DNA of 51,252 bases from Zoogloea oleivorans (GTDB taxonomy: Bacteria > Pseudomonadota > Gammaproteobacteria > Burkholderiales > Rhodocyclaceae): positions 1-51,252 of the forward strand of contig NZ_SDKK01000030.1 in assembly GCF_008107625.1 (NCBI RefSeq), read 5' to 3'. A program made the position numbers and the translations under genes. Shown here in pieces: positions 14,553-39,490 of the stretch. Below the pieces are notes generated by a model. That model saw only the letters and a list, made by a program, of their open reading frames with translations. It did not search any database and had not been told where the DNA came from. Position 1 is the stretch's first letter; each line of letters begins with the position of its first letter.

Positions 14553-14619
14553 TGAGACTGGCACCATAATTTTGCAGTGATTGCAAAGATATCGTTCCTG
14601 TACAAAGTGCAACGATATC
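14553..14619 (+). repeat. Left end of inner element with binding-site-like boxes
   Basis: After TGAGACTGG come TTTTGCAGTGATTGCAAAG (14571-14588) and ACAAAGTGCAACGATA (14602-14617), which differs by one base from the ACAAACTGCAACGAAATA box of the right end. A perfect 9-base inverted repeat, GATATCGTT at 14588-14596 and AACGATATC at 14611-14619, brackets the second box. These are probable TnsB sites of the inner element; the role of the dyad is not known. Confidence 0.65.
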
Positions 14620-14637
14620 GTTACCACAAGCCAACTC

Positions 14638-14675
14638 AAAAAAAGCCCACCAAAATTTGGTGGGCTTTTTCTTTT
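14638..14675. terminator. Bidirectional Rho-independent terminator
   Basis: A run of A is followed by GCCCACC, AAAATTT and GGTGGGC, then TTTTTCTTTT. The stem can end transcripts from either side. It stands just inside the left end and would insulate the KAP gene from acr3-side transcription and the reverse. Confidence 0.85.
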
Positions 14676-14873
14676 ACTGACTGTTCTTCGGCCTTTGCGG
14701 TCGTTGATGTTTTTGGCCAATTAGGACTGCTATGCAGTTAGAGAGCTGTCGTTCAGAGGAGCGATGAAACAGCACAACAGCATTACGACCTAACAAAATC
14801 GAACAATCGAGCCATTCCCTAGCCGCAATGCTGAATTGGGCTAGACTCACCAATATCTAATGAGGCTAATAAT

Positions 14874-17033
14874 ATGACAAAAGAAGAAAATATTGCAGAC
14901 CTTCGTCTGGATCGCCCTCTTCGGCCTGGAGGGGCACTCGCTGGCGACCTGTTAGATCGGGGAGGATTTGCAGCCCGAGTCACTGGTGTTTTATGTCGTA
15001 TTTCTCCCGAGGCGGGGCTTGTAGTGTCCGTTGAGGGGGCTTGGGGAAGTGGCAAAACGTCGTTGCTGGCAATGCTTGAAGAGTTGCTGAATGCAGAGCC
15101 CGAAAACCAACGGGCGGTGGTTGTTCATTTCAATCCATGGCTAATCGGCGACCGCGATGCCTTGTTGCGACAGTTCTTGGCAAGTATTGCCAAAGCCGTC
15201 AAATTGACTGATCACGCAAAAGAGGGAAAGCGAGTCGCCAAAGAGCTAAAAACTTATTCAAAGGCGTTCGACGTTCTGAAGCTAATTCCCGGTGCAGAGC
15301 CGTGGGCCAGCATCATCAAATCGGTGGTGGAGTCTGTTGGTAATGCCAGCGAGGCGGTCTTCGACTACAAGACCCCCGACATTGAAGCGAGGAAGGTGGC
15401 GTTGGAAAACGCCCTGCGCAAGTTTCCTCAGCGAATCGTCGTTCTGCTCGACGACCTCGATCGTCTGTACCCAGCCGAAGCCTATGAGATGGTTCGCATC
15501 ATCAAGGCGGTAGGAGATTTGCCGAACGTGGGCTATGTACTGGCCTGGGATGAAAAGTACGTTAGTGCCGCGTTGGATAAGTTGAGTGTGCCTTTTGCTG
15601 CAACTTACCTAGACAAAGTAGTACAGGTGAGGTTGCCTGTGCCCCCACTGTCATTCCCTCAACGTGTTGCGCTCATGAACAAGGCATTGGGAAGGCTAGA
15701 AAAAGAGGCTCTTGAGCAACATTTTAAAAGCGGAGATGAACGCCTTGGCTCCCTGTTCCATCATGGATTGAGCGAGCTGATTGAGCAGCCGCGGGATGTT
15801 GTTCGATTGTTCGACGTCGTTTGCTCAATCGAGCCGGGCTTGCGTGGCGAAATCCATCTGGCTGATATCCTCGGTTTGGCAATCCTTATGATCAAGGCAC
15901 CCTCTGTCTTCGAACTCCTCAGTCGGATGCCGCAGGCGTTTGTCGGAAGACGCCCGGGATCTCGAACGGAGTTTCGAGACGTCAAAGAAGTAGTTGAACA
16001 CCATGCGGCAGAACGTGATCTAGCTATCGACAGATATCCGCATGCAAAAGCTGTTCGGGATGTCGTGCACTGGCTATTTCCGCAGACGGCCAAAGCGGAT
16101 GATGCATTCACCTTCGGACGGATTGAGCTTGGCGAAGGGCATTTGGCAGCCCCAGATCGCTTGCTTATTGCATTGCACCTTAGTACCCGACCGGATGATC
16201 TCAGTCTTGTACGCGTAAGGCAGTATCTCTTCACCCCTGCCAAGCGCGCCGAGATTGCCGCGTCGCTTCAGCCGGATAACTGCATTGATTTCGTTGCCCA
16301 ACTGGGCAATATGGCAGAGGGACTAGGTAGTGATGTGGCCATTGATGCCGAGAGTCTAGCAATAGCCATTGCTCGGCTTGTTGAAGGCGAGGTATTCATA
16401 CGCCGGGCAAGGGATCGCGACAATCTTTTTTCGATGAAAGCCGAGCGAGTTGCAGTGCAAGCGATTGGGCAACTGGAAAAACGCTTGCATGAATCGCCCG
16501 CCGTAAACTTGGCGAAACGAATTTTGAGCGATGAGCAGGCTTTGTCGGTGGCATCGAAGATCGCCATCATGAATTTCATTTCCGATGACTGCGACCAATT
16601 GGATTATCTCAAGGTGCCGGTAGAGCATCGTGAAGTAGCCTTGGAAGCCTTTGCCGATAATGTAAAAAGCACGGCTCAGAATGGCGATCTGTTTGCCAAG
16701 GCCACGCCTGACCTTACTCTGTGGGTTCTGACGCGATTAAAACCAGAACACTGCAAACTTGTGTTTGAGGCAATTCAGAAAGCGGACCCAACTTTGGATC
16801 GTTTCGTCGAAGCCATGTTGAAGGGGGCATTCGATAGTCACAAAGGGCAGAGTTATCGCTTACCAAAAAACCTCCAAGAGCTTGAGAATTTTGTCGCCAT
16901 CGACCTATTGAAGCAGCTCGCGGCGGAACGACTGAAAGATGAGACGCTGGCCTCTCACGTCAGAGCGGCTTGGCGGGCATTGCTTGAAGAGAAATGTATT
17001 TATGGGAAGGACGGATCAGAAAACCGCGACTAA
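14874..17033 (+). CDS. KAP-family P-loop NTPase
   Basis: The 719-residue protein has Walker A GAWGSGKTS at residues 55-63 and Walker B VVLLDDLDRL near residue 190, followed by a sensor-like segment VGYVLAWDEKYV. This is the KAP ATPase family, named from Kidins220/ARMS and PifA. The usual pair of membrane helices inserted in the P-loop domain is not evident, so it is probably a soluble form like PifA. PifA lets the F plasmid exclude phage T7, and KAP proteins occur often in defence regions; a defence role here is inference. The C-terminal 400 residues are helical with no recognised domain. Confidence 0.82.
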   Translation: MTKEENIADLRLDRPLRPGGALAGDLLDRGGFAARVTGVLCRISPEAGLVVSVEGAWGSGKTSLLAMLEELLNAEPENQRAVVVHFNPWLIGDRDALLRQFLASIAKAVKLTDHAKEGKRVAKELKTYSKAFDVLKLIPGAEPWASIIKSVVESVGNASEAVFDYKTPDIEARKVALENALRKFPQRIVVLLDDLDRLYPAEAYEMVRIIKAVGDLPNVGYVLAWDEKYVSAALDKLSVPFAATYLDKVVQVRLPVPPLSFPQRVALMNKALGRLEKEALEQHFKSGDERLGSLFHHGLSELIEQPRDVVRLFDVVCSIEPGLRGEIHLADILGLAILMIKAPSVFELLSRMPQAFVGRRPGSRTEFRDVKEVVEHHAAERDLAIDRYPHAKAVRDVVHWLFPQTAKADDAFTFGRIELGEGHLAAPDRLLIALHLSTRPDDLSLVRVRQYLFTPAKRAEIAASLQPDNCIDFVAQLGNMAEGLGSDVAIDAESLAIAIARLVEGEVFIRRARDRDNLFSMKAERVAVQAIGQLEKRLHESPAVNLAKRILSDEQALSVASKIAIMNFISDDCDQLDYLKVPVEHREVALEAFADNVKSTAQNGDLFAKATPDLTLWVLTRLKPEHCKLVFEAIQKADPTLDRFVEAMLKGAFDSHKGQSYRLPKNLQELENFVAIDLLKQLAAERLKDETLASHVRAAWRALLEEKCIYGKDGSENRD

Positions 17034-20714: not shown

Positions 20715-21644
20715 CTACACACCCAATGGCCAGCACGCTGGTTGAACCTGGACATTTTTTTGATGCGATAACGCTGCTGATTCAACCAGCCAAGTCCCGA
20801 ATCGACAAGCCGCATGCTCATCGCTGAGCGAATCCCGCCAAACCACCTGAAGGGCCTTGCGTGGTGGCGGGTTTCCTTCCAGCGGGATGGCGACTAGCTT
20901 CCCTGATCTTGTCTCATCATCGACAGTTCCGGCAAGTGCCAACGACACGCCCATCCCCGCTTTCACCCATTGCTTGACGGCATCGGTTGAACCCAGGCGT
21001 GCGCCGATTGACAGCTCTTCCAATTCGATACCCAGATACTCCGCTAGGAGCCGTCCAGTACCTGTACCTGGTTCGCCGCCAAGCATCGGCATCTCCCTTA
21101 ATTGTCTGCAACTCAAATAGGGCAATCTTGCCCAGGGGTGGTCCGGCGCAACGATGACAACCATTTCCTCTGTTCGCCAGATGCGGGAGACATAGCCTGG
21201 TCGCTCGTCCCACCATTCCATGAGGGCGACATCAATCTCGCCTTTGGCGAGTTGCTCGGCAACCACCGGATTTCGGCCAATTTGGATGTCTATGCTTGCC
21301 TCGCTTTGGTCGCCATAGGCCTTGAGATAAGGGTGAAGCAGATAGATGCCAATATTGCTGCTGGCGCCGATCACAAGGCGACGCTCGCGGAATGTGTTGA
21401 GCGCACTGGTGGCGAGCCTATGGAGATTTCGCGCATGACTTTCGAACTTCCGCCCCTCCACCGTCAGTCGACAGCCCTTGGGGTCCCGCTCAACAAGACG
21501 GGCGCCCAGAAGGTTCTCCAGCTTTTGTAATTGCTGTGAGATGGCCCCCTGGGAAATCCCCAGTTCTCGGGCCGCTGCACGAAAGCTTTCCAGTCGGGCG
21601 ATAGCGAGAAAACTCGCAACCTGGTCGAGGTTGAGTGTGTTCAG
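20715..21644 (-). CDS. ptxE: LysR-type regulator of the phosphite operon (PtxE-like), CTG start
   Basis: The N-terminal HTH ([40 protein letters not shown]) and the following effector domain are typical LysR-type features. No ATG, GTG or TTG precedes the HTH in frame after the nearest stop. A CTG at 21644-21642 overlaps the ptxD stop as CTGA, imitating the usual ATGA coupling, and is the best start. Position after ptxD matches ptxE of the Pseudomonas stutzeri ptxABCDE operon, whose role in control is not settled. The shorter frame from 21461 would lack the HTH. Confidence 0.8.
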
Positions 21645-22302
21645 GCTGCGACCTTTGTGACAGGGCGATTGAGTGCACCTTGCGGTTCTTGTCCAGCCAG
21701 CACCTGCAGGATGTTGGTCGTTGCCTCCATTTCAATCGCCAATCGAACCGAGTCCACGGCAGAGCCGATATGAGGTGTGAACAGCGTTCGCTCAGAATCC
21801 GCCAGCAGACGCGCGGATATATTCGTCGGTCGATCCGACCGGGCCCACTCTTCGAGTTCGAAGACATCCGCGGCATAACCGGCGAGCTTGCCGGCGGCAA
21901 GCGCATCAGCCACCGCCTCCTCATCGACGACGGAGCCACGACAGGCGTTGACGAGGAACGCCCCTGCTTTCATGGTTGTGATCGCATCGGCATCGATCAG
22001 GTGAAGCGTATCCTCGCTGATCGGAAGCATCGGAACGACATAGTCGCTTTCCGCCAGCAATTGATCCACTGCGACGCGGCGCAGGCCAAGGCGAGCCTCT
22101 ATCTCGGGGGGCAAAGGTCGGGGGTCGGCATACAACAGCTTTAGTTCATAGCCTTGCAAACGGGCGACGATGGCCTGTCCCACAGCACCCATGCCGATGA
22201 TGCCTAAGGTTCGGCCTGTCAGGCCGGCGCCGTAAAGCACAGGTCGCCATCCGTCGAAGGAACCGCTGCGGACCAGTTTATCGCCCTGAAGAATCTTCCT
22301 AG

Positions 22303-23829
22303 CAGCCTGTCGGACTAACGCAGCGCGAATGGGATAATGCGCACTTGCCCACCGAACTGATCCTGAGAAATGAGCCGCTTCCATCCTGTAGACCGCCAGA
22401 CCGGTTATCTGCTCCCGCCCTCGGTCGATGAATGGCTGCCGGAAGACCACCTTGCCCGGTTTATTGTTGAGGTGATTGATGGACTCGACGTCAGTGCCCT
22501 GGAGAAAGCCTACGCGGGTCGTGGCAGCGCGGCGTATCACCCCTCGGTATTATTGGCATTGCTGGTGTATGGCTACGCCAACGGCGTCTTCTCAAGCCGA
22601 AAGATAGAGCGGGCGACCTACGACTCGGTGGCGTTTCGCTTCATTGCGGCTGGCACCCACCCTGACCACGACACCCTGGCGAGCTTTCGTCGGCGCTTTC
22701 TCGACGAGTTGGCTGGCCTGTTCGTGCAAGTACTGGAGATGGCGCGGGAAATGAAGCTCCTGAAGCTGGGCACGATCAGTCTGGACGGTACCAAGATCAA
22801 GGCGAACGCCTCGCGCCACAGCGCTTTGTCACACGGGCATATCGAGCAACTGGAAATCCAGCTCAAGGCAGAAGTTGAGTCCTTGCTGGCGACGGCCGAA
22901 CAGGCCGACCAATCCGCCGTGCCGGATGGCATGAATCTGCCGGAGGAAATTGCTCGACGCCAGGCCCGACTGGGGGCTATGGCAGCCGCCAAGGCCAAGA
23001 TCGAAGAACGTGCGAAAGCCCGCTTTGAGAAAGAGCAAGCCGAGTACGAAGGCAAGTTGGCGCGTCGAGAAGCCAAGGCTAAGGAAAGCGGCAAGAAACC
23101 CGGTGGCAAGCCGCCGAAACCGCCGGTTGCCGGGCCGAAGGCGCAAGACCAGCTCAATTTGACGGATGAACAATCGCGCATCATGCCGGTTGCCGGCGGC
23201 GGCTTTGAGCAAGCGTATAACGCGCAGGCAGCGGTTGATACGGGCACGATGCTGGTTGTCTCACTAAACGTGACGCAAGCCTGCAATGACAAGGAACAGG
23301 TGGTGCCGATGCTTGAGCAACTGGCAGCGCTGCCGGCCTCACTGGGTCGGCCGCAGGCACTGGTGGCGGATACGGGTTTTTACAGCGCCAAGAATGTCAG
23401 TGCCTGCGAAGAGAGCAGTATTGAGCCGTTCATTGCGGTGAAGCGGGATGAGCATCATCCGGCGCCGACGGAACGCTTTACCGAGCCGGCTGCCTTGCCA
23501 GCTGATGCCACGCCCGCCCAGGCCATGGCGCACAAGCTGAAAACGAAGGCGGGCCGAGCCCTCTACGCGTTGCGCAAGCAAACCGTCGAGCCCGTGTTCG
23601 GCATCATCAAGTCCGTGCTGGGCTTTCGTCAGTTCTCCCTGCGCGGCCTGAAGAAAGTCACCGGTGAATGGACACTGGTTTGCCTCGCCTGGAATTTGAA
23701 GCGCATGGCCGTATTGCGTCCGCAGTAGCAAAAACAAGGGAAAATCGTGCGTCTTACGACAAAAATCAGCGAAATTCGGCCTTTCAGGCCCCATTTTATC
23801 GACCTGGCCGGTTCAAGACCGACAGGCTG
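22303..23829 (+). mobile_element. IS1182-family insertion sequence, 1527 bp
   Basis: Ends are CAGCCTGTCGG (left) and its inverse CCGACAGGCTG (right). CTAG occurs on both sides (22299-22302 and 23830-23833). It contains one full transposase gene on the plus strand and disrupts ptxD. Confidence 0.9.
22370..23728 (+). CDS. IS1182-family transposase
   Basis: The 452-residue protein starts with the family opening [20 protein letters not shown] and [18 protein letters not shown] residues are visible: Asp in [18 protein letters not shown], Asp in [14 protein letters not shown], Glu in [21 protein letters not shown] charged coiled-coil insert of about 120 residues (rich in Ala, Lys and Glu) lies between the first two, normal for this family. 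The gene is intact. Confidence 0.93.
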
Positions 23830-24190
23830 CTAGTAAGTCCGATCAACATGCCGATCGTCAGTTCCGCTGTCGGAATGGTCAGCAGATCGGGTACGTTGGT
23901 GATCCATATACCTCGCTGGGTACAGGCATTTACATCGTAGTTGTCATAGCCTTTCAAGGCGCAGCCGACGACTTGTAGGCGGGGACAGGCAGCCAGGAAC
24001 TCATCGTCCACGCTGTCGGTCATGAAGGTCATGATGGCCTCCGCATCCTTGGCGCGACTCAGGATTTCCTCCCGGGAGAGGCGCTCGCGCGTCGTATTGG
24101 GTACTACATCGCAATGTTCGGCCAGCCGGTTGATGACTTCCGGATGCACCCAACTGGTAAGGACGACTTTAGGTTTCATGTTTCCTCTAT

Positions 24191-24997
24191 TCATTTGAAG
24201 CGTTTTCTGAGCGTGCTGCTTAAGGTATCAACCAACGTAACCATAAGCAGGATGACGAGCAGGATGGCCGAGACCTCCTGATACTGCATGATGCGCAGGG
24301 AACCCATGAGCTCGAAGCCAATGCCGCCTGCACCCACCATGCCCATAACCGTTGAGGCACGGAAGTTGTATTCCCAGCGATAGATCGAGATGTCCGCCAT
24401 TTGCGGCAGCACTTGCGGGACAACACCGTGAAGGAGAACCTGGATAGGCGTGGCGCCAGCGGCGCGCGCTGCCTCAATGGGAGCTTCGTCGGCATGCTCG
24501 ATGGCTTCGGCAAAGAACTTGCCGATCATGCCCACAGAGTGCAAGCCCAAAGCCAGCACGCCAGGCAGCGCGCCAAAGCCGACCGCGGCAACGAAAATGA
24601 TGCCCAGGATCATTTCGGGAATCGAGCGCAGCGCATTCAGGGTGGCTCGGGCTACCTGATAGATCACCGCATGCGGCGTGGTGTTGCGGGCCGCGAGGAA
24701 GGCCAGGGGAATAGATAGCACGACCGCCAGGGCGGTACCGGCCACGCTCATGGCCAGCGTATCGATCAGCGGTTTGAGCCAACTGCGGGCGTTCTGAAAG
24801 TCCGGCGGGAACATTTCACTGAGTAAAAGGAGGATGGCAGGGCCTCCGTCAGCTAGGCGCTCCCCGTCGAACAGTCCGACATAGTGGATGCATAGGCCGA
24901 TGACAAGAAGAATCGTCACCAGTCGCAGCGCGCCGCTGTTCCAGGCGCGCTGCTGTTGATCAATGATCACATTGTGATCGAGGCTACGAGTATTCAT
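24191..24997 (-). CDS. ptxC: Phosphite ABC transporter permease
   Basis: The 268-residue protein is an inner-membrane permease of the phosphonate-type ABC family (PhnE-like) with about six helices. The ATPase contact loop reads [20 protein letters not shown]. It forms the channel for phosphite with PtxA and PtxB. The TGA overlaps a possible upstream ptxD start (ATGA at 24191-24194), although ptxD probably starts at 24179. It begins two bases after the ptxB stop. Confidence 0.9.
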
Positions 24998-24999
24998 GC

Positions 25000-25857
<858 letters not shown>

Positions 25858-26667
25858 TTAGTCCTCAATGATGGCTAGTTCAAGCGATGGATTGTTTAAC
25901 GGGAGGGTCTTTTCGCTGGGTGGCTTAGGCACAGACGGCGTCTGGTCGTAAATCATGTCAAGCACACCGTTTGTCAGCGCATCGGGGGCTCCATCGAAGA
26001 CGACGCGGCCTTGGGCCAGGCCGATCACCCGGTCGGCGTATTCCATGGCGAATTCGACCTGGTGCAGACTGACCACGGTAGTTATGCCGTCTTCGCGGCA
26101 AATCTGTTTAAGTTGGGAAAGAACCCGGCGCGAACTCGCGGGATCGAGGCTCGCAATCGGTTCGTCGGCCAGCATCAGGCGGGGTTGTTGTGCCAGGGCC
26201 CGGGCTATGCCTACTCGTTGCTGTTGCCCGCCGCTCAGTTGGTCTACCCGGTCCAGTGCCTTGTGCAGTAGACCGACCCGGCTCAGGCATTCCAGCGCTA
26301 TCTGGCGCTCGGCGCGTGGCAGCGGAAAGAGGCTGCGCCAGGTTGAGTGATAGCCGATGCGCCCGAGCAACACGTTGGCCAGGGCCGTATGGCGCTCGAT
26401 GAGTTGGTGTTGCTGGAAAACCATGCCGGTCTGGCGACGATGGGTCTGCAAGGCCGCGCTGTCCTCAATCGCCCCGATGCCATCCACATTGATCTGACCG
26501 GTGCTTGGCTTGTTGAGCAGATTGAGACAGCGCAGGAGGGTGGATTTGCCAGCACCGGAAGCACCCAGCAGTACAGTAAACTCACCGCGACCGAAACGTA
26601 GCGAGGTCGGCTGGAGGGCCACCAGATCGTCACGGTAACGGACGGATATGTCGTTCAGATGAATCAT
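25858..26667 (-). CDS. ptxA: Phosphite ABC transporter ATP-binding protein
   Basis: Walker A GASGAGKSTLLRCLN, ABC signature LSGGQQQRVGIARAL and Walker B RLMLADEPIASLD are all present in order. This PhnC-type ATPase powers phosphite import. Of two ATGs, the one at 26667 has AAGGGG at a normal distance and is preferred to 26682. It is the first gene of the ptx operon, and a large palindrome lies just upstream. Confidence 0.92.
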   Translation of the reverse strand: MIHLNDISVRYRDDLVALQPTSLRFGRGEFTVLLGASGAGKSTLLRCLNLLNKPSTGQINVDGIGAIEDSAALQTHRRQTGMVFQQHQLIERHTALANVLLGRIGYHSTWRSLFPLPRAERQIALECLSRVGLLHKALDRVDQLSGGQQQRVGIARALAQQPRLMLADEPIASLDPASSRRVLSQLKQICREDGITTVVSLHQVEFAMEYADRVIGLAQGRVVFDGAPDALTNGVLDMIYDQTPSVPKPPSEKTLPLNNPSLELAIIED

Positions 26668-26685
26668 GGGCACCCCTTCCATACC

Positions 26686-28321: not shown

Positions 28322-28330
28322 ATTAACGAA

Positions 28331-28891: not shown

Positions 28892-29000
28892 ACCCATTGC
28901 TTTAACCAGAAACATCCTCTACACTGAACTCAGTCCGTCGGGCGCCTCACTCCAAGTGGCGTTAAACAGGATAATTTAATCAGACTAAAGGAGTTTCAAA

Positions 29001-29735
29001 ATGAGCAGCAATCAGCAACTGCATGATGAAGCCGTCGCTCGAGGACACGACTCGCGAGAGTCGGGCGCCTACCGCATCAGCTTCGGCCTGGAAGGGCTAA
29101 CTTTTCGCGATATCGACATGCTGGATCCGGTGCCCACAGGTCGGCAAATCCTTGCCGGCGCGGGTCTAGACCACCGCGAGGACTACATTCTGTACGCCTA
29201 CCTGAATACTGGCGACTTTGAGGATGTTCGCCTCGACGAGGTCTTTGATCTGCGCAGCAAAGGCGCTGAGAGCTTCATCGCGTTCAAATCCGACCGGGAT
29301 TTCAAGTTTTCGCTGAACGATCGTCAGTTGGCGTGGGGCCATTCCGAAATGCTTGGCAGTGTCCTGTACGGCCTTGCCAACACTTCACCAGAAGAAGCTG
29401 TGTTTCTTGAGGTCAGGGGCGGAAAGGACCAACTGATCGAGCCGGACGAACGCGTGAACCTCGATGCGCCGGGCATCGAGCGATTCATCACCGCACCAAA
29501 GCCGCACCCGGTCCAGTACGAGATCTTCGTCAACGGCAAGCCGCGCAAGTACCACGACGAGCAGATTAGCTACGAGGATGTCGTTCGCTTGGCGTTCCCC
29601 GAGGGGCCCTTCGACATCCTGTACACGGTGGCCTTCGCCAACCTCCACGGCCACGATGGCACGCTCGCCCCGGGGCAGTCCACTGTCGTCCACAATGGGA
29701 TGGAATTCCGTGTCCGCAAGACCAATCGCTCCTGA
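29001..29735 (+). CDS. Multiubiquitin protein with three ubiquitin-like domains
   Basis: The 244-residue product contains three beta-grasp repeats at about residues 24-100, 101-168 and 172-242 (each opening YRISF, FKFSL and YEIFV). The last one ends EFRVRKTNRS with no terminal Gly-Gly. This is the multiubiquitin family found with E1-like and other ubiquitin-type genes in bacteria. A good AAAGGAG site lies before the ATG. It probably is the protein that becomes attached to targets or to itself. It leads a tight three-gene operon. Confidence 0.85.
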   Translation: MSSNQQLHDEAVARGHDSRESGAYRISFGLEGLTFRDIDMLDPVPTGRQILAGAGLDHREDYILYAYLNTGDFEDVRLDEVFDLRSKGAESFIAFKSDRDFKFSLNDRQLAWGHSEMLGSVLYGLANTSPEEAVFLEVRGGKDQLIEPDERVNLDAPGIERFITAPKPHPVQYEIFVNGKPRKYHDEQISYEDVVRLAFPEGPFDILYTVAFANLHGHDGTLAPGQSTVVHNGMEFRVRKTNRS

Positions 29736-31002
29736 TTCAGGACTCGCCGCCCTTCTGGAGCAGGGCTATGAGGTCGAAGTGCGCCAGCAGCATTTGCTGG
29801 TGCACTCCGTCCCCTACGTCGCCGCAAATGGCACGGTCGAGCGCGCGTCGGTTGTCTGCAAGTACGTGGAGGATGCCGGCACCATCCTGCCTCCCACGGC
29901 TGCCGGTGACGACCACCAGGTTTGGTGGACAGGCTCATTTCCGTGCCGCAGCGACGGTACGCTGATGGTGGCGGAACTCGTTGCCAACGCGCAGCCGTCG
30001 CCGTTCACGGTGTTCGAAGGTTGCAACTCTCAACATCGCTTTTCGAACAAGCCGGAGGAGTACAACCAGACCGGTTATCCGGACCATTTTGAGAAGGTCA
30101 CGCACTATGTGACCCTCATTCAGAGCCAGGCCAAGGTACTCGACGCGAACGTTGACGCGCGCACGCGCCGCGTCATCCCCCCCTCGGAACCGGACTCGGT
30201 TTTCCGATACGCAGACACGGCCAGCGTGCGCGCCGAAATCGTGGCCACATCGGCCAGGCTCAAGCTGCGTAAGGTCGCAATCGTGGGTCTCGGTGGTACC
30301 GGCAGTTACGTTTTCGACCAAGTAACGAAGACTCCAGTGTGGGAGATTCATCCGTTCGACGGGGATGACTTCAAGCAGCACAACGCCTTTCGCGCACCGG
30401 GTGCTGCGACAACGGAAGAGTTGCGTCGGCACATGAAGAAGGTTGACTACTTCATCGAGCGCTACAGTCCAATGCGAACAGGCTTAGTGCCCCATCCGTA
30501 CTTCCTGGATGAGGCAAACGTGTCCGAGCTTGCGGGCTTCGACTTCGTCTTCGTGTGCGTCGACAAGGGGCTGGCGCGCAAGACCATCTGCGGCTACCTG
30601 ACCGCGCAAGGCATCCCTTTTGTTGACGTTGGCATGGACGTTGCGATGGACGCCGAGACGCAGCAGCTTGACGGAACCTGCCGAGTCACGACCATTACGC
30701 CATTCAAGAACGACCACATCGCCGGCTCCATCCCGATGGACAACGACGAGTCGGACGCGCTCTACCGCCAGAACATCCAAGTGGCGGATCTGAACGCGCT
30801 GAACGCCCAGCTTGCGGTAATCAAATGGAAGCAGCTGTTCGGCTTCTACGAGGATCGTGCGAGGTCGCACCAGGCCACATATACGGTTGCGACACAGTCG
30901 CTGACTCGTGGCGAACTCGCAGCTCGCAGCCTTGGCCCCGAGCCTACCGTTCGTGGTGATACCGCGGTATCAGCGATCGAATGCGCGGGAGCGACTGGAT
31001 GA
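29710..31002 (+). CDS. E1-like (ThiF-fold) activating enzyme with N-terminal E2-like region
   Basis: The C-terminal half has the adenylation fold: nucleotide loop VAIVGLGGTGSYVFDQV, acidic FDGDDFKQHNAFR, and DFVFVCVDKGLARK; a possible catalytic cysteine is in LDGTCRVTT. The N-terminal 150 residues (LEQGYEVEVRQQHLLVHSVP...) look like the E2-like or accessory domain fused in such systems, without an obvious catalytic Cys motif. Start GTG at 29710 or ATG at 29695 overlap the multiubiquitin gene; the frame extending to 29464 is a shadow. Its stop overlaps the next gene (ATGA). It would activate the multiubiquitin C-terminus with ATP. Confidence 0.8.
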   Translation: MSARPIAPDSGLAALLEQGYEVEVRQQHLLVHSVPYVAANGTVERASVVCKYVEDAGTILPPTAAGDDHQVWWTGSFPCRSDGTLMVAELVANAQPSPFTVFEGCNSQHRFSNKPEEYNQTGYPDHFEKVTHYVTLIQSQAKVLDANVDARTRRVIPPSEPDSVFRYADTASVRAEIVATSARLKLRKVAIVGLGGTGSYVFDQVTKTPVWEIHPFDGDDFKQHNAFRAPGAATTEELRRHMKKVDYFIERYSPMRTGLVPHPYFLDEANVSELAGFDFVFVCVDKGLARKTICGYLTAQGIPFVDVGMDVAMDAETQQLDGTCRVTTITPFKNDHIAGSIPMDNDESDALYRQNIQVADLNALNAQLAVIKWKQLFGFYEDRARSHQATYTVATQSLTRGELAARSLGPEPTVRGDTAVSAIECAGATG

Positions 31003-31496
31003 GACAGACGCACCTAAAGCCACAGTTCGTTGAGTTCATCCCTGACCAGTTAGACGACGGCGTGCTGTACATCAGCGAGCGGTTTCGGACCTGCTCCCAC
31101 AAGTGTTGTTGTGGATGTGGAGACGAGGTTGTCCTGCCCCTATCCCCGGCAGAGTGGCAGTTGAGTCGCGACGGCGACTTTGTCTCACTTTGGCCATCGG
31201 TGGGCAACTGGGACTACCCGTGTAGATCTCACTACGTGATTCGCCGAAATCAGGTGCGCTGGGCCGCTTCGATGACAGAGCATCAGATTAGGCGAGTCAA
31301 GCAACGAGACGAGGTCGCCCTGCGGTTGCAGATCAATGCCAACAACACTACGCGCGCCACCGGCGCCGTCGGAACATCGGCGCCATCCATCTCTGCCGAC
31401 GCATCAGGAGCGCCATCAGGCATATCGTTATCGAACACACCTAGCCTGAGCATCTGGAAGTGGATACGAAGCCTTTGGGGCTCTGGAAGCGGCTGA
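30999..31496 (+). CDS. DUF6527-like protein of ubiquitin-like operon
   Basis: The 165-residue product has a cysteine cluster (CSHKCCCGCGDEVVL), then LSPAEWQLSRDGDFVSLWPS and NWDYPCRSHYVIRRNQVRW, the pattern of DUF6527 proteins found next to multiubiquitin and E1 genes. Such proteins are proposed peptidases that process or remove the modifier; I cannot confirm catalytic residues. The ATG overlaps the E1 stop, so translation is coupled. The last 60 residues are low-complexity Ser/Thr/Ala followed by an amphipathic end (SIWKWIRSLWGS) that may bind membrane. Confidence 0.78.
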   Translation: MRQTHLKPQFVEFIPDQLDDGVLYISERFRTCSHKCCCGCGDEVVLPLSPAEWQLSRDGDFVSLWPSVGNWDYPCRSHYVIRRNQVRWAASMTEHQIRRVKQRDEVALRLQINANNTTRATGAVGTSAPSISADASGAPSGISLSNTPSLSIWKWIRSLWGSGSG

Positions 31497-31911
31497 TGGA
31501 TTCGCGGCGGGCCCAGCATCATTCGTCGTCGGTACCGCGGGCGTGAGGTCCGCTGGCCGATTCCGTCACACAGCGCCGGGGCGCTGAGGGCAGAGTCGGT
31601 TCCAGCTAATTCCGTCGTCGAGAATCGGTTGTTTAAGGAGCCACCGGGTGAGCATCACCGTCGAGTGACTGGTTGAATCCGCCCTGAGAAGCTGCCAGTC
31701 AGCCCACGAGAGCGCAGTAGCCGGTTTTGGCCGGGTGCTGTCCTTTACTCATGACAAATGCAGTCATTGAAGGCGATTAGCGGCTGACTACTTCTTGGAC
31801 ACGCTGTATAAGCCGTATCCCAACTATCCGAGTCAGAAAAACGCCATCCTCATTGACTGAGATCGGCTTTCAACCTGCCAGAAAATCCACCCCGTAGATA
31901 ATTGCTAACAA
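31497..31911. other. Non-coding stretch with a gene remnant
   Basis: 31771-31860 on the plus strand encodes ADYFLDTLYKPYPNYPSQ followed by KNAILID and a stop, a coherent C-terminal tail preceded at once by a stop codon. It looks like the last 28 codons of a lost gene of unknown family. The rest has no recognisable content. Confidence 0.4.
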
Positions 31912-32567: not shown

Positions 32568-33932
32568 TTAAGTTTCAGCCTTTTTTTGATACTCCGCCAA
32601 TACGGTTTGTGTCGCGTGGCGAATCACAGGGTCTGCAAACGTAAGTCCATTTTTCTCCAGTTCAGCCCACATTTTCCTCCGGCTGATTGGTTTAAGTTCG
32701 GTAAGCATCTCTTGAACGATCTCCTTCGCTTTCGCAATCCTTGCCTCGCGTTTTGCGGTAACCCGGCTCGCAGAGGCACGTTTGTGCTTGTCCGATATTG
32801 CTCGGGTGAGTTCAGGAAAGTTATAGTTTAGAAATCTTCTATTGACTCCCAATAGTTCTGCAACTGATCTTTGAGTAGGTGCCGCATCACTATCAAGGCA
32901 GGCAATGAGGAAATTTTTGATCCCCGCCATTTCAGCCTCGCTACGTTTGACTTTCTTGCATCTATGAACCAGCGGGTAGTCCTCGATCTGATCCGCAATA
33001 TCTTTAGGGATGTCTCTACTCAGAAACTCCAGTGGCGAGGACTTTAGCCGAAAGCATAGCTCTAGAAACAGGTCGATCCTCGGCTTACTCTGCATGTCTG
33101 CCCAGCAGCAGATAACGTTTTTATTGAATCCTAGGCGCATCTCGAAGCGCTTCATATTGCCGTTGTTTACGGCGTTACAGTAGCTTTCCAGACGATTGGC
33201 GAAATGCTGCTGGGTTGCTTTCGAAGAAATGGTTGGGCCGGCAGCGATCATTTCTTCAAGTGCCATAGTTTTGAATTTATCGTGAAGGGAAATATGCGGT
33301 ACTTTATCCATCGTATCCTTGGAGGATGAAGTGCCTAGCCATCCACCGCAATGTGTGCAGTAGCCTAATGAAGCGTGTTGAGCGATAAAAAGTTGCTGTT
33401 TTTCGCAACGTGGACACCTTTGTTCAAGGGGGGCATGATGAGTTGTGCAAATGGTTGCGGAGCGAAGGAACCATATGAGCGGGTAGTAAATCCCTTCCTT
33501 TGACTTTTCAAAGGTGTCCAGACATTGGGGGCAAAAAGCGACATGGTCTCGCAGCAAGGCTGAACCTTTCGGGTCAAGGATGTCTTTCCAAGCAGTGAAG
33601 GTGAGGTTAAGCAGGTTTTTTTGAAGCGTTAGCCGTTCAAGAGCATGGCTGAATATAGCCGCGTAACTGGTGTATGAATTGATTGTCTTGGAATTGGTGT
33701 TGTTGAAGCTGGTGGCAGATGTGTCAAGGCGAATGCCTGTTATCGGAATAAGTACATCCCTTACCAGGTGAGCTGGTTTGACCACATGTTTGCCGGCAAG
33801 GCGGGTCAAATAGGAGATCAATGCTTCGCATTTTGTTGTTCCAACACCGATAGGATTTAGCGATACCAATTTTGAGCGTGCAGGTATCACTATCGATGGC
33901 ACCGCAAAGTCGTCCAGAAGTTCAAGCTGCAT
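32568..33932 (-). CDS. tniQ: TniQ-family targeting protein of inner transposon
   Basis: The 454-residue product carries the TniQ zinc finger in two parts: CPQCLDTFEKSKEGIYYPLI with CTTHHAPLEQRCPRC, then CTHCGGWLG. The C-terminal part has HTH-like segments (RSVAELLGVNRRFLNYNFPE). TniQ/TnsD proteins recognise target DNA and recruit TnsC. Length lies between short TniQ (about 350-400) and TnsD (about 500), so it may bind DNA by itself. The ATG at 33932 follows GGAGGAATTCCCT, overlapping the TnsC stop by 11 bases. Confidence 0.85.
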   Translation of the reverse strand: MQLELLDDFAVPSIVIPARSKLVSLNPIGVGTTKCEALISYLTRLAGKHVVKPAHLVRDVLIPITGIRLDTSATSFNNTNSKTINSYTSYAAIFSHALERLTLQKNLLNLTFTAWKDILDPKGSALLRDHVAFCPQCLDTFEKSKEGIYYPLIWFLRSATICTTHHAPLEQRCPRCEKQQLFIAQHASLGYCTHCGGWLGTSSSKDTMDKVPHISLHDKFKTMALEEMIAAGPTISSKATQQHFANRLESYCNAVNNGNMKRFEMRLGFNKNVICCWADMQSKPRIDLFLELCFRLKSSPLEFLSRDIPKDIADQIEDYPLVHRCKKVKRSEAEMAGIKNFLIACLDSDAAPTQRSVAELLGVNRRFLNYNFPELTRAISDKHKRASASRVTAKREARIAKAKEIVQEMLTELKPISRRKMWAELEKNGLTFADPVIRHATQTVLAEYQKKAET

Positions 33933-35097
33933 AGGGAATTCCTCCAACTCGGTCTCTACTTGGGCCTCGTTTGCCTGGCCGATTTGATCCCTTGCGTGAT
34001 TTCTGGCTCTTGGTTGAATTGCTGTCCCCGGTGGGGAAGTTGTCAGTTATTACAGTCAATGAAGGCGTGACGGATAGTCCAAGTTCTAACGTCAGTACGT
34101 CATCCTTGATGTCTTCAAGTTGCTTTTCACCCAGTTTGGCTTCTTCCAGCATGAGCTTTAACAGCTTGTTGGGAATCCGTGAGCCTTGAAGAATTTCTCG
34201 AGTAAGCACTTGCTCATCACTCATGAGCGCCCTCCACTGAGCGCGGTTGAACCACTTCTTCAGCAGGCCAATGTTCCCAAGGGAAAACTGATAGAAATAG
34301 TCGAGGTGATTGATGAGGCCATCTTCTTTGTCGATCGGCATTGCCTCGAGAAGGGTGTGAACGCTGTTTCGGAAGGAAATGCAATGAGGATTGGATGGGT
34401 CGAGCAGTTCCGAAACGAGGTATCTCGAAAAATGAGTTACCTCTGTTCGGCGAGTTAGTTGCCCGTTTAGCTGAAGGATTCCTAGCAGCGAGTAGTCTCC
34501 CGCCAAAATGATCGGGATTTTTAGCTCTTGTGCGACACTTTTGATCAGTTCGAACTGTACCCGGGGGGGGAGTGAGCTCTTGGTAATGAGCAAATGACCT
34601 GCTTCGTCCAGCAAAAGGAATTTTGTTTTTCTCGACGCAAAGGCATTGCGCACTGCTCTGCGGAGTTCCTCGCGGACAAGTGATCGTATGTTGAGAATAG
34701 TTTCTTCATCTAACATGGCCTCCGGGCGAAGAATTACTTTCTTCCGGATCAGGACATCGTTAAATTTCTCCAATAACCGGGAGAAGAAGTCTTTCCAGTT
34801 GAAGTTTCCATCTTGCGGGGCTGTTACCTGAGAGTAGATGACCGGGATGAACCCTGGGTCTTCCTCCATTTCCTTTGCGTAATGTGTGAGGATTTCAGCT
34901 TCGATTCGTTTCAGCAACGTTGATTTTCCGCAGCCGGATGGGCCTACCAGAATGTGTAACTCTTCAACGTTCTCGGGCTCTTGCTCAACGATCCACATCA
35001 GGCTGGTGTAGGCATCTGAGAGTTTCAGATGGGATATCCGTTTCTTTGCATATATGCGGATAGCTGCGATCGCCGCAGCCTTTTTTTCGTTATCCAT
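33922..35097 (-). CDS. tnsC: TnsC-type AAA+ ATPase of inner transposon
   Basis: The 391-residue protein has Walker A VGPSGCGKSTLLKRIEAEIL, Walker B KFLLLDEAGHLL and a sensor region IPIILAGDYSLL. TnsC/TniB proteins form filaments on target DNA and pass the insertion decision to the transposase. The start lies two bases after the TnsAB stop. The C-terminal tail is polar, rich in Ser, Lys and Arg. It is smaller than the outer TnsC (543 residues) and shares little sequence with it. Confidence 0.88.
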   Translation of the reverse strand: MDNEKKAAAIAAIRIYAKKRISHLKLSDAYTSLMWIVEQEPENVEELHILVGPSGCGKSTLLKRIEAEILTHYAKEMEEDPGFIPVIYSQVTAPQDGNFNWKDFFSRLLEKFNDVLIRKKVILRPEAMLDEETILNIRSLVREELRRAVRNAFASRKTKFLLLDEAGHLLITKSSLPPRVQFELIKSVAQELKIPIILAGDYSLLGILQLNGQLTRRTEVTHFSRYLVSELLDPSNPHCISFRNSVHTLLEAMPIDKEDGLINHLDYFYQFSLGNIGLLKKWFNRAQWRALMSDEQVLTREILQGSRIPNKLLKLMLEEAKLGEKQLEDIKDDVLTLELGLSVTPSLTVITDNFPTGDSNSTKSQKSRKGSNRPGKRGPSRDRVGGIPYAA

Positions 35098-35099
35098 GT

Positions 35100-37781
35100 T
35101 TAGAAATCCTCCAGCAGTTCCGCCGGTATATCCGGTGTGATGGAAATTGAAGTCACAGGGCGTTCAGGAAATTCCAATGTTTCTTGTTTCGTGCTTCCCT
35201 TCAGGTTGGTGGCTGCACGAACAGTTGCGCTTTCGTGATCCTGTAGCCGTTGCATATGAAGTACTTCCTCGGCTTCTGCGCTTTGCAGGAATGACGCGAG
35301 TGTCTTGGCATTGATTGGGATGGTTGTTCCGGTGAACTTCGCCTTCAGGCGAAGGTGATTCGTTGCGATCCGGATTTGCTTCTCGGTGTATTGCTGGAAA
35401 ATCGCGTAATACTCTGAGAAGCATTTCTGCCAGCAACCTTGGATAAAGGCATAGGCAATAGCGTAGTTGTCGGGGTCGTATCTGACATCAACGCGCGAAC
35501 GTAATACCCCCGGGGCATCCATGGCAGTACAGTGATACCAGAGGTAGTTGATCTTTACCCCTTGTGGCCCAACCTTTGCATCGCCTTTGTTGGTGCTTGG
35601 GCATGTCTCAATGATGAACTCTTCGTTGTAGACATAGAGTGCATGCTGGCGAGAGCCAAAGGTTTTCATCCCATTGATGAAGGCCGAGGCTGGGCTTTCC
35701 CCTAGTGTTGTGTGAACGTTGCCGTGGTAAATGTCATTGAAGTAGCTGTTCAGTCGGAGTGCCAGTCGTTCATAAGTCCAAATTGCTTTCAACGTGGGAT
35801 CCACATCGGCGCCAACGGAGCGCGGGTTCATGTCGTTCGTCGCGCCAGCGAGATTAGAGATGAACTGCTCAAACGTGGTGCCGAATAGCCTCTCTATGAC
35901 GGCCCCGAACTTGGCTTTTGACTTGGGGCGCGATTTTTTGTGGCTCTTTAGCAGCCCAAGTAGCTTTTCAAAATATGTTGAATTGAATTCGGATGCATTG
36001 TCGACGACAGTAACGTGTGGGATTCGACCATGCCGTCTCACGCACTCGCGTATCACCATCATGCAGCTACGATACGAGGGAGGATCGAAACTGAGATAAA
36101 AGGCTAGTACATACCTACTGTAGGCATCTATCAGTAGAGTGAGCCACACCGTTTCAAGGAGATATTTCCCGGATTTGTCCTTAACCTTGATCGGAAGCGG
36201 ACTGTGATCAATGTGCCCGATATGAAATGGCCGATTGCCGTGTCGAGGGGTGGTGTATTCAAGTACGAGATAAGGTGGCTCATCGGTATATGCTGCTTTT
36301 TCACCAACGCGCTTCTTTGTCTGCGCATGAGACTCGTGCTGTTTGATGATTTTTTGAAACGTCTTGAGGCTTACAGGAGTAACCCCCTCGGCCTCACAAT
36401 CATTGGCATACATCCCATGGCACAGAACGGCTGATCGCTGTGCGTCATTCTCCCAGTAGTCCTCGTATGCTTTGATCGCCAAGTCATATGCTCGCGGGTC
36501 ACATTTTTGTGAGTGATTTCCCTGCGTGCCGTTCAGATTGTGGATCAGTCCGATATACCCGTTGCCGAACTTCTGTTCTGCGGCCCTGTAATTTGCAAGC
36601 CAGTATGCTTTGGCCCGATTAGAACGACTGATAAAAGGGTTTTTCTTGTCTGGTGTACCAAATAAAATTTGGAAGCAGTAGTTGGCGATTTTTAGACGGG
36701 ACGTAGGGGTGGTTCTAAGGATTTCAGCCACCAAGGTAGCGCGTTCGTCTTCGTCATCATTTCCTGGTACCAATTTTCCAGTACGGGCGAGTTCCGTTAG
36801 TTGGTCTTCATTGAGTTCAACGATGATGGGGGAGCTCTCATCAGTCATGGGCATGGCGCTGATGCCATGATCGCCAATATTTACCACTCGCCAGGGCCGG
36901 CCATCCCAGCTAAACGTTCGGCCCGGTATGGCCTTAAATCCGGTAATTCCAGGGGTTCTTAAACCCACGCTGGTTCTGGCAACTACTTGATACGCTTGGG
37001 CGTTGATCGCATTTGCGAAGAGAAGGGCCTTATCGGGGTCAGAAATTCGGTTTTTCAGGAAATCAAAGTAGATTTTCTTTGTGACGATGAGTCCGTAAAG
37101 GCTGTCGGAATCCACTGCATCTTCGCCTTCAAGGAGTTCGCTCACTGTTAGCCAATTGCTTTTTGCGAGACGCTTTTCAAGCTTGCTTTGCGCATCCGGT
37201 GCGATACGCAAATTTTTTGGATCGACAATTAGGTAGTCGGCGAAAAACTCGTAGTTCTCAAGTGCGATCCAGTTGTTCTCACTGCTGGAGCGAACAATGA
37301 ATCGGCAGCCCAGCTTTTCAGCGGCGGCTTCCCCGGGGGGGCTGCGCCATCTACCTTGTCCATCCAGTTGGTAACGATTGGGTTGTGCCTCAGCAAGCTT
37401 GAGGAGTTCTTCCTCTGTTTTGCACTCAACGAAGGCAAAGTAATCCCTACAAACCTGAAAAATGTCAGGGGTTATGTCTGGGTGAACAAGTTTCCCATTT
37501 GCGTTGATGTAACTGATTCGAAGCTTGCAAGGTTGCGGGTAAAACTCAAGAACTTGGTCATTGTTGTCATAGTCCTCAAAGGTCGCGTACTCGGTGTTGA
37601 ACGCTTCCGCTTCAAGTACAAAGCCCATCTTTCGCGAGCAAAATCGGCAGGGAGTGTTCTTGATGCCGGTGTTAACCGACCGGGTAGGTGCGTTCGCACG
37701 TATCCATCGAATGCGCGCGCGCGCTTCCGGTTTAATCCCGAGTCGATCGAAATGTTCCTCAAGCAAATTGTCATCCAACAT
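35100..37781 (-). CDS. tnsAB: TnsA-TnsB fusion transposase of inner transposon
   Basis: Residues about 45-190 (from the ATG at 37781) form a TnsA-type endonuclease: Glu64 in AFNTEYATFEDY, Asp106 in HPDITPDIF, and E-x-K at 119-121 in FAFVECKT. A TnsB-type DDE integrase follows, with first Asp in HIGHIDHSP, second in TVVDNASEFNSTYF and Glu in KFGAVIERLFGTTFEQF. Fused TnsAB occurs in some Tn7-like groups, including type I-B CRISPR-associated ones; fusion permits cut-and-paste in one protein. A TTG start at 37847 would add 22 residues including a CAKC pair, but lacks a ribosome binding site. Confidence 0.87.
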   Translation of the reverse strand: MLDDNLLEEHFDRLGIKPEARARIRWIRANAPTRSVNTGIKNTPCRFCSRKMGFVLEAEAFNTEYATFEDYDNNDQVLEFYPQPCKLRISYINANGKLVHPDITPDIFQVCRDYFAFVECKTEEELLKLAEAQPNRYQLDGQGRWRSPPGEAAAEKLGCRFIVRSSSENNWIALENYEFFADYLIVDPKNLRIAPDAQSKLEKRLAKSNWLTVSELLEGEDAVDSDSLYGLIVTKKIYFDFLKNRISDPDKALLFANAINAQAYQVVARTSVGLRTPGITGFKAIPGRTFSWDGRPWRVVNIGDHGISAMPMTDESSPIIVELNEDQLTELARTGKLVPGNDDEDERATLVAEILRTTPTSRLKIANYCFQILFGTPDKKNPFISRSNRAKAYWLANYRAAEQKFGNGYIGLIHNLNGTQGNHSQKCDPRAYDLAIKAYEDYWENDAQRSAVLCHGMYANDCEAEGVTPVSLKTFQKIIKQHESHAQTKKRVGEKAAYTDEPPYLVLEYTTPRHGNRPFHIGHIDHSPLPIKVKDKSGKYLLETVWLTLLIDAYSRYVLAFYLSFDPPSYRSCMMVIRECVRRHGRIPHVTVVDNASEFNSTYFEKLLGLLKSHKKSRPKSKAKFGAVIERLFGTTFEQFISNLAGATNDMNPRSVGADVDPTLKAIWTYERLALRLNSYFNDIYHGNVHTTLGESPASAFINGMKTFGSRQHALYVYNEEFIIETCPSTNKGDAKVGPQGVKINYLWYHCTAMDAPGVLRSRVDVRYDPDNYAIAYAFIQGCWQKCFSEYYAIFQQYTEKQIRIATNHLRLKAKFTGTTIPINAKTLASFLQSAEAEEVLHMQRLQDHESATVRAATNLKGSTKQETLEFPERPVTSISITPDIPAELLEDF

Positions 37782-37855
37782 CTCTGGTATTTCCCTCTCA
37801 AGCGCCAAGTTCAACGAACATTTGGCGCAGTGAACAAATTTGAACAAAGAGGGAA

Positions 37856-38201: not shown

Positions 38202-38398
38202 GTTTTTGGACCCCGTGATGCCGGTCGCAAATGCCTTGCTCCTGTCCCTGATCCTAGGCCAAGGCAGCTATCCGAATCCCGTATTTCGTTTGCGCAACAG
38301 GCCACGCCAAAAACCTCATGCAACTCGAACAACCTATGTTTTAGCGGTTGCACAGGTATCATTCAACGCCATTGCAATACGTTATTTCATGACACCTG

Positions 38399-39274
38399 AT
38401 GGTCAAAACTCGAACGACTCTTGATAAATCAATAAAAAAGAGGCGGCCTGGTGGGGGTAACAAGCCCAAGGACCAGCTGGACCGATTTATTCCGAAGCTC
38501 TGGTACTGGATCGTGAAATCCCGATGCGACTGGAGCGATTCGGACCTAAATATTGCGTTTATCCCAGACAAGGACGGCAATCCTCGTGATCGCACGAATC
38601 GAACGCGAACATTCGAAGGAATCAGAAAACGCGGTGTAGCTCCGTCCTCGGCAAAGAAGAAGCATCACTCGCGTGACTTTGATCTTGTGGAGAGCGTCGA
38701 TGCACACCCATTTTTCCGAGGTACTGCCCGGGTAATGAGTAGCCCTTTCTGGCGATTGCTCAAGGAAGCGCCTGGAGATACAAGCGCATCTATTAGGCTC
38801 GTTGATGAGTGCCTTGCCCATTTCGCACTCGAGCGTGTTTCGGCATGGGAGGCGCTGATATTGCTTGTCGGGTGCGAAAGAACTGACCCTGTCGAAAAGC
38901 GCCATGGACTCAAAGAGGGCGATGTAAGTGCGTTTGAAGTTCTTATGCAAAGGGCCACTTCAACGTTGCTGATCGACCTTGATCTTCTGTGCTTATTTGG
39001 CGCTATGTATCGCGAGGCCTGCCTCAGCTTTCTTCCTGCTGAAGCCGAGTTACTCGGTCACTATTTTGAAATCACTCTGCAGCAATTTTGCGATCAGAAA
39101 TTTCCTCCGGAAATACTGGATTGGCTCGCCGATATAGCTCGAAATCGGGTGCTCTATGGGAAGCGTGATTACTTCCCGCCAACAGGTGGCGTCGATGTGG
39201 TTTCCGAAATATGGAAAGGAAAGTCGTTAGTCATCCGGCCTTGTGCACGTGGTACAACAGTTGAGACGCCGTAA
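38399..39274 (+). CDS. Unknown 291-residue protein near right end of inner transposon
   Basis: I do not recognise a family. The N-terminus is strongly basic (KTRTTLDKSIKKRRPGGGNK), suggesting nucleic acid binding, and is followed by FIPKLWYWIVKSRCDWSDSDLN. The rest is mainly helical (ECLAHFALERVSAWEALILLVG, LLCLFGAMYREACLSFLPAE). It reads toward the right end, divergent from the transposition operon, and stops 216 bases from the end. Genes in this position in Tn7 relatives may serve regulation or targeting; no function is claimed. Confidence 0.65.
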   Translation: MVKTRTTLDKSIKKRRPGGGNKPKDQLDRFIPKLWYWIVKSRCDWSDSDLNIAFIPDKDGNPRDRTNRTRTFEGIRKRGVAPSSAKKKHHSRDFDLVESVDAHPFFRGTARVMSSPFWRLLKEAPGDTSASIRLVDECLAHFALERVSAWEALILLVGCERTDPVEKRHGLKEGDVSAFEVLMQRATSTLLIDLDLLCLFGAMYREACLSFLPAEAELLGHYFEITLQQFCDQKFPPEILDWLADIARNRVLYGKRDYFPPTGGVDVVSEIWKGKSLVIRPCARGTTVETP

Positions 39275-39329
39275 AGTCATTCCAGACAACGCATACGCCT
39301 AACTTGAAGGGAGTGGTTCGGAAAGGCCC

Positions 39330-39490
39330 GTCTCACATTGCGACAAACTGCAACGAAATACCGTTGGTTTTGACAAACTGCAATTTATTGATAAAGTGGT
39401 CCGCAAATAGCCAAGACAAAAGCGCAGGATTACACTGAAAACTGCAAGGAATTGATTCCGAATCGATGCAAAACAATGCTTCCTGTCTCA
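39330..39490 (-). repeat. Right end of inner element with repeated boxes
   Basis: ACAAACTGCAA occurs at 39343-39353 and again at 39373-39383, with a weaker copy (AAAACTGCAA) at 39438-39447 and ATGCAAAAC at 39466-39474. The end itself is CCTGTCTCA. These match the TTGCAGT boxes of the left end in inverted direction and are likely TnsB sites. An extra GTCTCA at 39330-39335, directly before the first box, imitates a second terminus. Confidence 0.7.

Follow-up and report, generated by a model that had tools for sequence, protein, structure and literature searches.

Clustered regularly interspaced short palindromic repeats (CRISPR) have been taken up by some Tn7-like transposons. The type I-B2 and type I-D CRISPR-associated transposons (CASTs) are described as having evolved from a subfamily of Tn7-like elements with a fused TnsAB transposase and a TnsD that reads tRNA genes (PMC11406308; PMC10293859; statements from the literature refer here to those parts of each paper that were available to us). 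The TnsABCD structure of one such transposon, PmcCAST, has been described (PMC12585508), and a 2024 review holds the non-CRISPR targeting systems of this branch to be unstudied and likely informative on CRISPR uptake (PMC11406308). IS and Tn3-type elements are known to nest in Tn7-like ones (PMC8649781). These were the only nested cases among the papers inspected from a literature search on nested or tandem Tn7-like elements, which left most subscription journals uncovered, and the available parts of PMC6360697 and PMC7500258 describe no Tn7-like element inside another. Here we describe contig NZ_SDKK01000030.1 of Zoogloea oleivorans, 51,252 nucleotides in length (the whole stretch analysed, hereafter the window), in which a Tn7-like element of 24.9 kb at positions 14553-39490 (the inner element) lies inside the second arsC gene of a Tn7-type element of 51.25 kb (the outer element). 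The inner element is very probably a complete cut-and-paste element of the TnsAB-fusion subfamily that inserted away from its home site into arsC of a Tn7-type element residing at attTn7.

Ends of the inner element and its empty site

The inner element is bounded by 24-bp terminal inverted repeats, at 14553-14576 on the plus strand and 39467-39490 on the minus strand, which fit a single pattern with 0 mismatches and confirm as exact the boundaries proposed in a first-pass annotation of the sequence. Both ends begin with TGAGAC and fit TGAGACNGGNNNNATNNTTTTGCA. That annotation had recognised the motif with a leading C, which was not retained: the terminal base is T and the C at 14552 belongs to the flank. 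The end pattern, TGAGACWGGNANNATNNTTTTGC, has at up to 3 mismatches only these 2 matches in the window, against a mean of 0.15 in shuffled sequences (2 of 100 shuffles reach 2). In the whole genome, where chance matches at 3 mismatches are common, it has 14 matches, 2 of which are the real ends, and the reversed control has 5. The ends and the interrupted gene are as follows.

14553..14693, plus strand: inner left end (TGAGACTGGCACCATAATTTTGCA...), aligning over 142 columns at 94.4% identity with the left end of the element in the metagenome-assembled genome AG28 (see below), with the same terminus
39325..39490, minus strand: inner right end (TGAGACAGGAAGCATTGTTTTGCA...), 84.4% identical to the AG28 right end over 167 columns
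39491..39739, minus strand: N-terminal part of the second arsC (...SPHLDF), split reading frame
14288..14551, minus strand: C-terminal part of the second arsC (FVFTVCDNAAGE...), split reading frame

The empty site is present in a genome of the same genus (G004). Its contig C8 matches window positions 4665-14551 at 98.2% and 39491-43493 at 96.8% in one continuous stretch, the two alignment pieces overlapping by 3 subject bases (4115-4117). The ArsC encoded there reads SPHLDFVFTVCDNAAGE in one unbroken frame; in the window the insertion separates ...SPHLDF from FVFTVC..., and the F of LDF, being part of the duplicated target, stands on both sides. The split of arsC into two halves that join in frame, and the joint expected in an empty-site relative, were thus both found as the first-pass annotation had predicted, with collinear flanks. 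A duplication flanks the insert in the window and is missing from G004, which marks the insertion as the derived state. Matches between the G004 contig and the window extend to 43493, inside the fifth outer gene, and to 635 on the other side; the contig therefore shares the outer cargo but not the outer ends. Judged by these alignments, the outer cargo came first and the inner element second, and to this extent the proposed stepwise growth of the island holds.

That an assembly error joined two elements and so produced the nesting is scarcely credible. The exact coincidence of the contig ends with the outer ends does point to difficult assembly at those places, but both inner junctions have coherent ends and a flanking duplication, and their flanks are collinear with the empty-site relative. 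An artefact was rejected on the strength of that relative and of the ends shared with other elements. The empty site, at 97-98% identity, is direct evidence for the entry of a complete Tn7-like element into a second one, and hence for the ability of attTn7 islands to grow through the stacking of whole transposons.

Transposition proteins and classification of the inner element

Membership of the inner element among Tn7-like elements rests on the homology of its TnsAB, TnsC and TnsD.

35100..37847, minus strand: TnsAB fusion transposase (PDB 9bw1_M, E 9e-164, residues 30-876)
33922..35097, minus strand: TnsC (TniB / AAA_22; 68% identical to the AG28 TnsC)
32568..33947, minus strand: TnsD-type TniQ target selector (PDB 8v32_J TnsD, E 4e-47, residues 8-412)
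38399..39274, plus strand: 291-amino-acid (aa) gene divergent from tnsAB, with one homologue in the same relative place in locus L072

TnsA and TnsB form one protein with DDE residues, 915 aa long when counted from the TTG start used here; D547, D616 and E652 are invariant in an alignment of 6 sequences. The TnsD-type TniQ is related to tRNA-associated TnsD. By homology, the inner element belongs to the TnsAB-fusion subfamily that also yielded the type I-B2 and I-D CASTs. The structure 9bw1_M is the PmcCAST transposase, as the transposase of locus L039, from the Peltigera membranacea cyanobiont 210A genome, matches it over 850 residues with 1950 bits.

The inner element shares with PmcCAST (Tn7744, type I-B2) and the type I-D CASTs homologous TnsAB fusion and TnsD proteins, and its left end resembles that of PmcCAST, which itself lies 31 nt past a tRNA. 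Its TnsAB is 36% identical to those of three aligned cyanobacterial plasmid members. However, no CRISPR part and no second, small TniQ were seen in it, its ends read TGAGAC where theirs read TGTGAC, and it is inserted in a gene. No array-like tandem repeats occur in 14553-39490, and Pfam scans found no Cas domain among 22 chosen open reading frames (ORFs) of the element. As a result, the inner element is not filed as a type I-B2 or I-D CAST; CRISPR-guided insertion was rejected because there is no repeat array.

The proteins are predicted to be active. TnsAB would bind the repeats at the TGAGAC ends, cut them and join them, TnsC would link transposase and target, and the TnsD-type TniQ of the relatives would steer insertion to points 25-26 nt downstream of a tRNA gene.

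Relatives of the inner element

When genome contigs were scanned with an alignment, 176 places encoding a relative came up, the best 80 of which were kept, whereas scans with a single protein, of genome contigs and of viral contigs, gave none. At E 1e-40, matches came from 2 of 369 genomes of the class: the window's own genome, where the only match to the inner transposase is the window's own, and one distant relative.

The nearest relative lies in the Betaproteobacteria metagenome-assembled genome AG28 (G565), with TnsAB 62%, TnsC 68% and TnsD 47% identical to those of the inner element. The end pattern, with 0 mismatches, brackets its tns genes from G565:C3:307451 (+) to 336538 (-), so that ends of the inner type do bound an element elsewhere, a check that the first-pass annotation had called for. 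At the DNA level the two elements are 94% identical at the left end (142 columns) and 84% at the right end (167 columns) but only 64.6% in tnsAB; this difference may reflect either strong constraint on the ends or an exchange of ends. Unlike the inner element, that of AG28 is inserted 25 nt past a tRNA-Gly, and by eye its cargo looks different, including for example restriction-type genes.

A second, distantly related tns set starts shortly past the right end of the AG28 element, with TnsAB 29%, TnsC 27% and TnsD 27% identical to those of the window. In locus L184 (G565:C3:332500-341500), from about position 4040, an end-like TGTTGTG can be seen by eye 5 bp past the right end of the first element. 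The arrangement looks as if two branches stood in tandem at one tRNA site.

More distant members occur in Burkholderia TSV86 and LMG 13014 (TnsAB 41%; end pattern with 1-2 mismatches). Contig C286 of LMG 13014 carries the right end and, 1.4 kb further on, the start of a tnsAB gene cut short by the contig end. In both genomes the tRNA-side ends were linked to the transposase through the shared genome and the end sequence. The window groups with AG28 (support 100) and then TSV86 (99) in a quick tree of 83 rows, for which the program warned of long branches. Plasmids searched by the inner left or right end yielded no further members of the clade. Two end-pattern matches in viral contigs look like chance, with nothing tRNA-like seen by eye in the 100 bases upstream. 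Among 399 genomes of the order the end pattern matched 5, including the window's own; two of the other four were inspected (L200 and L203) and show no sign of an element.

Homing to tRNA genes and the exception at arsC

The three clade relatives all lie at the 3' end of a tRNA. The left end of the AG28 element is 25 nt past the CCA of the tRNA-Gly gene and that of LMG 13014 is 26 nt past a tRNA-Ala. In TSV86, 36 nt of sequence match the 3' end of the LMG 13014 tRNA-Ala exactly, and the left end lies 25 nt further on; ARAGORN calls no whole tRNA at this site. In 92 loci of the wider family, not all of them independent, ARAGORN found 13 tRNA genes, and 11 of these have an element end 25-32 nt downstream. 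Many of the 92 loci stop short of the element ends, and loci without a tRNA are therefore uninformative. These comparisons define both ends and the usual tRNA site for a non-cyanobacterial, CRISPR-free relative of the I-B2 and I-D CASTs.

The window copy is not at a tRNA, and no tRNA gene is present in the window. A 36-nt profile built from 12 attachment sites (spacings 22-34) was applied to the flanks of the insertion. The left-end side scores -9.1 and the right-end side -0.8; of 5000 random places in the window, 92% and 26%, respectively, score at least as high. In comparison, the leave-one-out scores of the real sites, flattered by near-identical sites among them, range from 7.4 to 28.9, and the 99% point of the background is 7.5. 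A tRNA-like site at arsC was rejected on both sides by this profile. Since the relatives lie past tRNA 3' ends and arsC is not tRNA-like, the inner copy, a member of a tRNA-homing clade, appears to have missed its home site and entered a gene of another transposon; it would thus have inserted elsewhere than its relatives do, at a point with no tRNA-like sequence beside it.

Alternatively, the TnsD of the window copy might have drifted to recognise arsC, which would then be its proper attachment site. The TnsDs of the family pair with varied tRNA genes (Gly, Ala, Val, Leu, Gln, Met), indicating that their specificity changes. However, this TnsD is 47% identical over 451 aa to that of AG28, whose element sits at a tRNA; the insertion is inside a gene and not at a fixed distance past a gene end; and no second arsC case was seen, though no search aimed at broken arsC genes. 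We consider such a change of specificity very improbable. The TnsD of the window copy presumably still reads tRNA, and insertion into arsC was presumably independent of TnsD or the result of relaxed targeting.

It has also been considered that the inner element has a second targeting route, comparable to that of TnsE in Tn7, with a preference for mobile or transferring DNA and encoded by an as yet unrecognised gene, for example the 291-aa gene at 38399-39274 that lies between tnsAB and the right end. The only insertion of the clade seen away from a tRNA is indeed inside another mobile element, and two-pathway lifestyles are given as near universal for Tn7-like elements (PMC11406308). The 291-aa gene has its homologue in L072, likewise divergent from tnsAB, at a locus that is itself at a tRNA. 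But a preference is not demonstrable from one insertion, and among all loci searched L072 was the only match. None was found in AG28, where homology to the gene in the corresponding place is unsupported (pairwise E only 0.012). A second route of this kind is unlikely. Off-home insertion of an element that otherwise homes to tRNA genes is the reading that we carry forward.

Target duplication

14549..14552, no strand: left copy of the flanking direct duplication, GAAC (empty site GACGAAATC)
39491..39494, no strand: right copy of the flanking direct duplication, GAAA (same empty site)

The window flanks read GACGAAC on the left and GAAATC on the right, compared with GACGAAATC at the empty site. 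The duplication may be a 4-bp GAAA with one substitution, or a 3-bp duplication with an added base; a 5-bp duplication would need further changes. In AG28, GTTGAT precedes the element and TGATC follows it, giving an overlap of TGAT. In LMG 13014, the flanks GATCGCAA and GCAAGATC overlap by GCAA; they lie on two contigs that probably represent one site, since the joined flanks form a terminator-like palindrome with a GCAA loop. No 5-bp pair of copies was found in the window, AG28 or LMG 13014. The end pairs of PmcCAST, G574, G575 and L061 show no duplication of at least 3 bp, but these ends were paired by motif alone and speak neither for nor against a 4-bp duplication. Judged by the two relatives, with the window fitting after one substitution, the flanking duplications look like 4 bp, not 5 bp. 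The available part of PMC11406308 states a 5-bp duplication as the rule for Tn7 and all related elements; should the 4-bp duplication hold, that rule would be broken and the geometry of strand joining would become testable.

The outer element at attTn7

1..41, plus strand: outer left end (TGTATAAAAATAATAAAG...), inverted repeat with 51211-51251
51211..51251, minus strand: outer right end (TGTTGAAAAATAATAAAG...), inverted repeat; junction on contig C50
50300..51136, minus strand: TnsA (Pfam TnsA N and C domains)
48154..50298, minus strand: TnsB (PDB 7pik Tn7 TnsB, E 6.8e-142, residues 37-693)
46536..48167, minus strand: TnsC (Pfam AAA_22 / TniB)
44703..46532, minus strand: TnsD (Pfam TnsD and TniQ; PDB 8glu Tn7 TnsD)
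43012..44706, minus strand: fifth gene in the tnsE position, 564 aa, with two Azospirillum plasmid matches at 35-38%

The window is the entire contig C34 of its genome. Bases 1-41 and 51211-51251 form an imperfect inverted repeat (76% over 41 nt), indicating that the contig stops on the transposon's own ends. The site just past glmS is the classical attTn7. Contig C50 carries glmS, then 25 bp, then 19 bases equal to the right end of the window, where it stops. This places the outer element at attTn7 with its tnsA side adjoining glmS, as in Tn7. The element has separate TnsA, TnsB, TnsC and TnsD proteins related to those of Tn7, TGT ends, and its right end about 25 bp past glmS. It differs from Tn7 in its cargo, which consists of an arsenic operon, a permease, a cation-efflux gene and an ATP-synthase-like operon, and in its fifth gene, which has no family match in Pfam, NCBIfam or PDB and is not recognisably TnsE. 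A second element of the outer type lies past glmS in another genome (G018) and is 70.8% identical over window positions 45310-51220.

The outer left end (window 1-18) was found once elsewhere, at G000:C84:4359-4378, the end of a contig of 4378 bases that is cut inside a gene resembling an RND pump (named by eye). No match to a 5-bp target duplication is seen, the glmS-side flank being CCCTG and that on C84 CCTGA toward the element. The C84 flank is probably not the original one of the outer element, and the surroundings have been rearranged or are incompletely assembled. Two copies of the outer element were considered and rejected, as each outer end has just one occurrence outside the window. 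In this strain the attTn7 region probably forms a larger composite island.

Domain and structure matches for the outer TnsA-B-C-D and for the inner TnsAB, TnsC and TnsD bear out the first-pass claim that two Tns systems are present. They had been called unrelated, and they do lie on distant branches, but they belong to the same superfamily, both having a TnsB-type transposase, a TnsC-type ATPase and a TniQ domain. With different ends and different transposases, target immunity of the outer element would not be expected to bar the inner one; it presumably did not act because the outer transposase does not read the inner ends. A wider construction, in which a CRISPR-free Betaproteobacterial branch with TGAGAC ends and a 4-bp stagger reaches mobile elements by a second route without TnsE or CRISPR, and stacks across branches despite immunity, seems to us distinctly unlikely.

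Several observations weigh against an off-home insertion of a complete, CRISPR-free element into a transposon at attTn7. Only a single inner copy is known in a site other than a tRNA, and off-home targeting thus rests on one event. The duplication at arsC is not clean (GAAC vs GAAA), and the outer left flank on C84 does not show the duplication that the glmS side would predict. No tns gene was seen on the contigs that carry the tRNA-side ends of TSV86 and LMG 13014, the tRNA profile was drawn from 12 sites of which several are nearly identical, and the absence of Cas genes is taken from the Pfam scans of 22 chosen ORFs. Several ORFs carry no assignment.

Cargo of the two elements

Read on the minus strand from the tns side, the outer cargo comprises an unbroken arsC-like gene, arsA, the split second arsC and an SBF/ACR3-type transporter, followed by an FMN reductase, a sigma factor, ATP-synthase-like subunits, a cation-efflux protein and an ArsP-type permease.

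41925..42404, minus strand: first arsC-like gene, unbroken (LMWPc)
39741..41543, minus strand: arsA (ArsA_ATPase, E 2e-94)

A Comamonas plasmid is annotated with the order arsC, phosphatase, arsD, arsA, arsC, ACR3, in which the second arsC is whole. The ATP-synthase-like operon (alpha, beta, gamma and A subunits) occupies window positions 4658-10829 and, by its gene order, presumably resembles the N-ATPase type.

14874..17033, plus strand: KAP-family NTPase (PADLOC PifA, 6.6e-66, and QatA profiles)
20715..26682, minus strand: phosphite/phosphonate-type cluster (LysR part, split ptxD-like dehydrogenase, and the permease, phosphonate-type binding protein and ATPase of an ABC transporter)
22295..23837, plus strand: insertion sequence (IS) splitting the ptxD-like gene, with 22-nt inverted repeats and a DDE transposase at 22370-23728; its outer bases are approximate
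29001..31496, plus strand: operon of multiubiquitin, ThiF/DUF6791 (E1-like) and DUF6527 (domain matches)

Each element had been said to bring defence or resistance cargo. This holds in part. The outer element has genes for arsenic and metal-type transport as well as the ATP-synthase-like operon; the inner one has, besides the KAP NTPase matching the PifA and Qat defence profiles, phosphite/phosphonate-type uptake genes and the multiubiquitin-E1 operon. The IS inside the ptxD-like gene goes beyond what that annotation contained, as do the tRNA homing of the relatives and the likely 4-bp duplication. We take the genes of the phosphite-type cluster to be ptxA-E from their order and domains. At 20715-21461 there is a LysR substrate-binding domain with no N-terminal helix-turn-helix in the same ORF, and the regulator of this cluster may thus be broken. 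A literature search returned nothing pertinent on phosphite genes or multiubiquitin on Tn7-like elements. At 27221-32451, HATPase-type and winged-helix genes stand beside those for multiubiquitin, the DUF6791/ThiF E1-like protein and DUF6527, and this region is a candidate bacterial ubiquitin-like system carried as transposon cargo.

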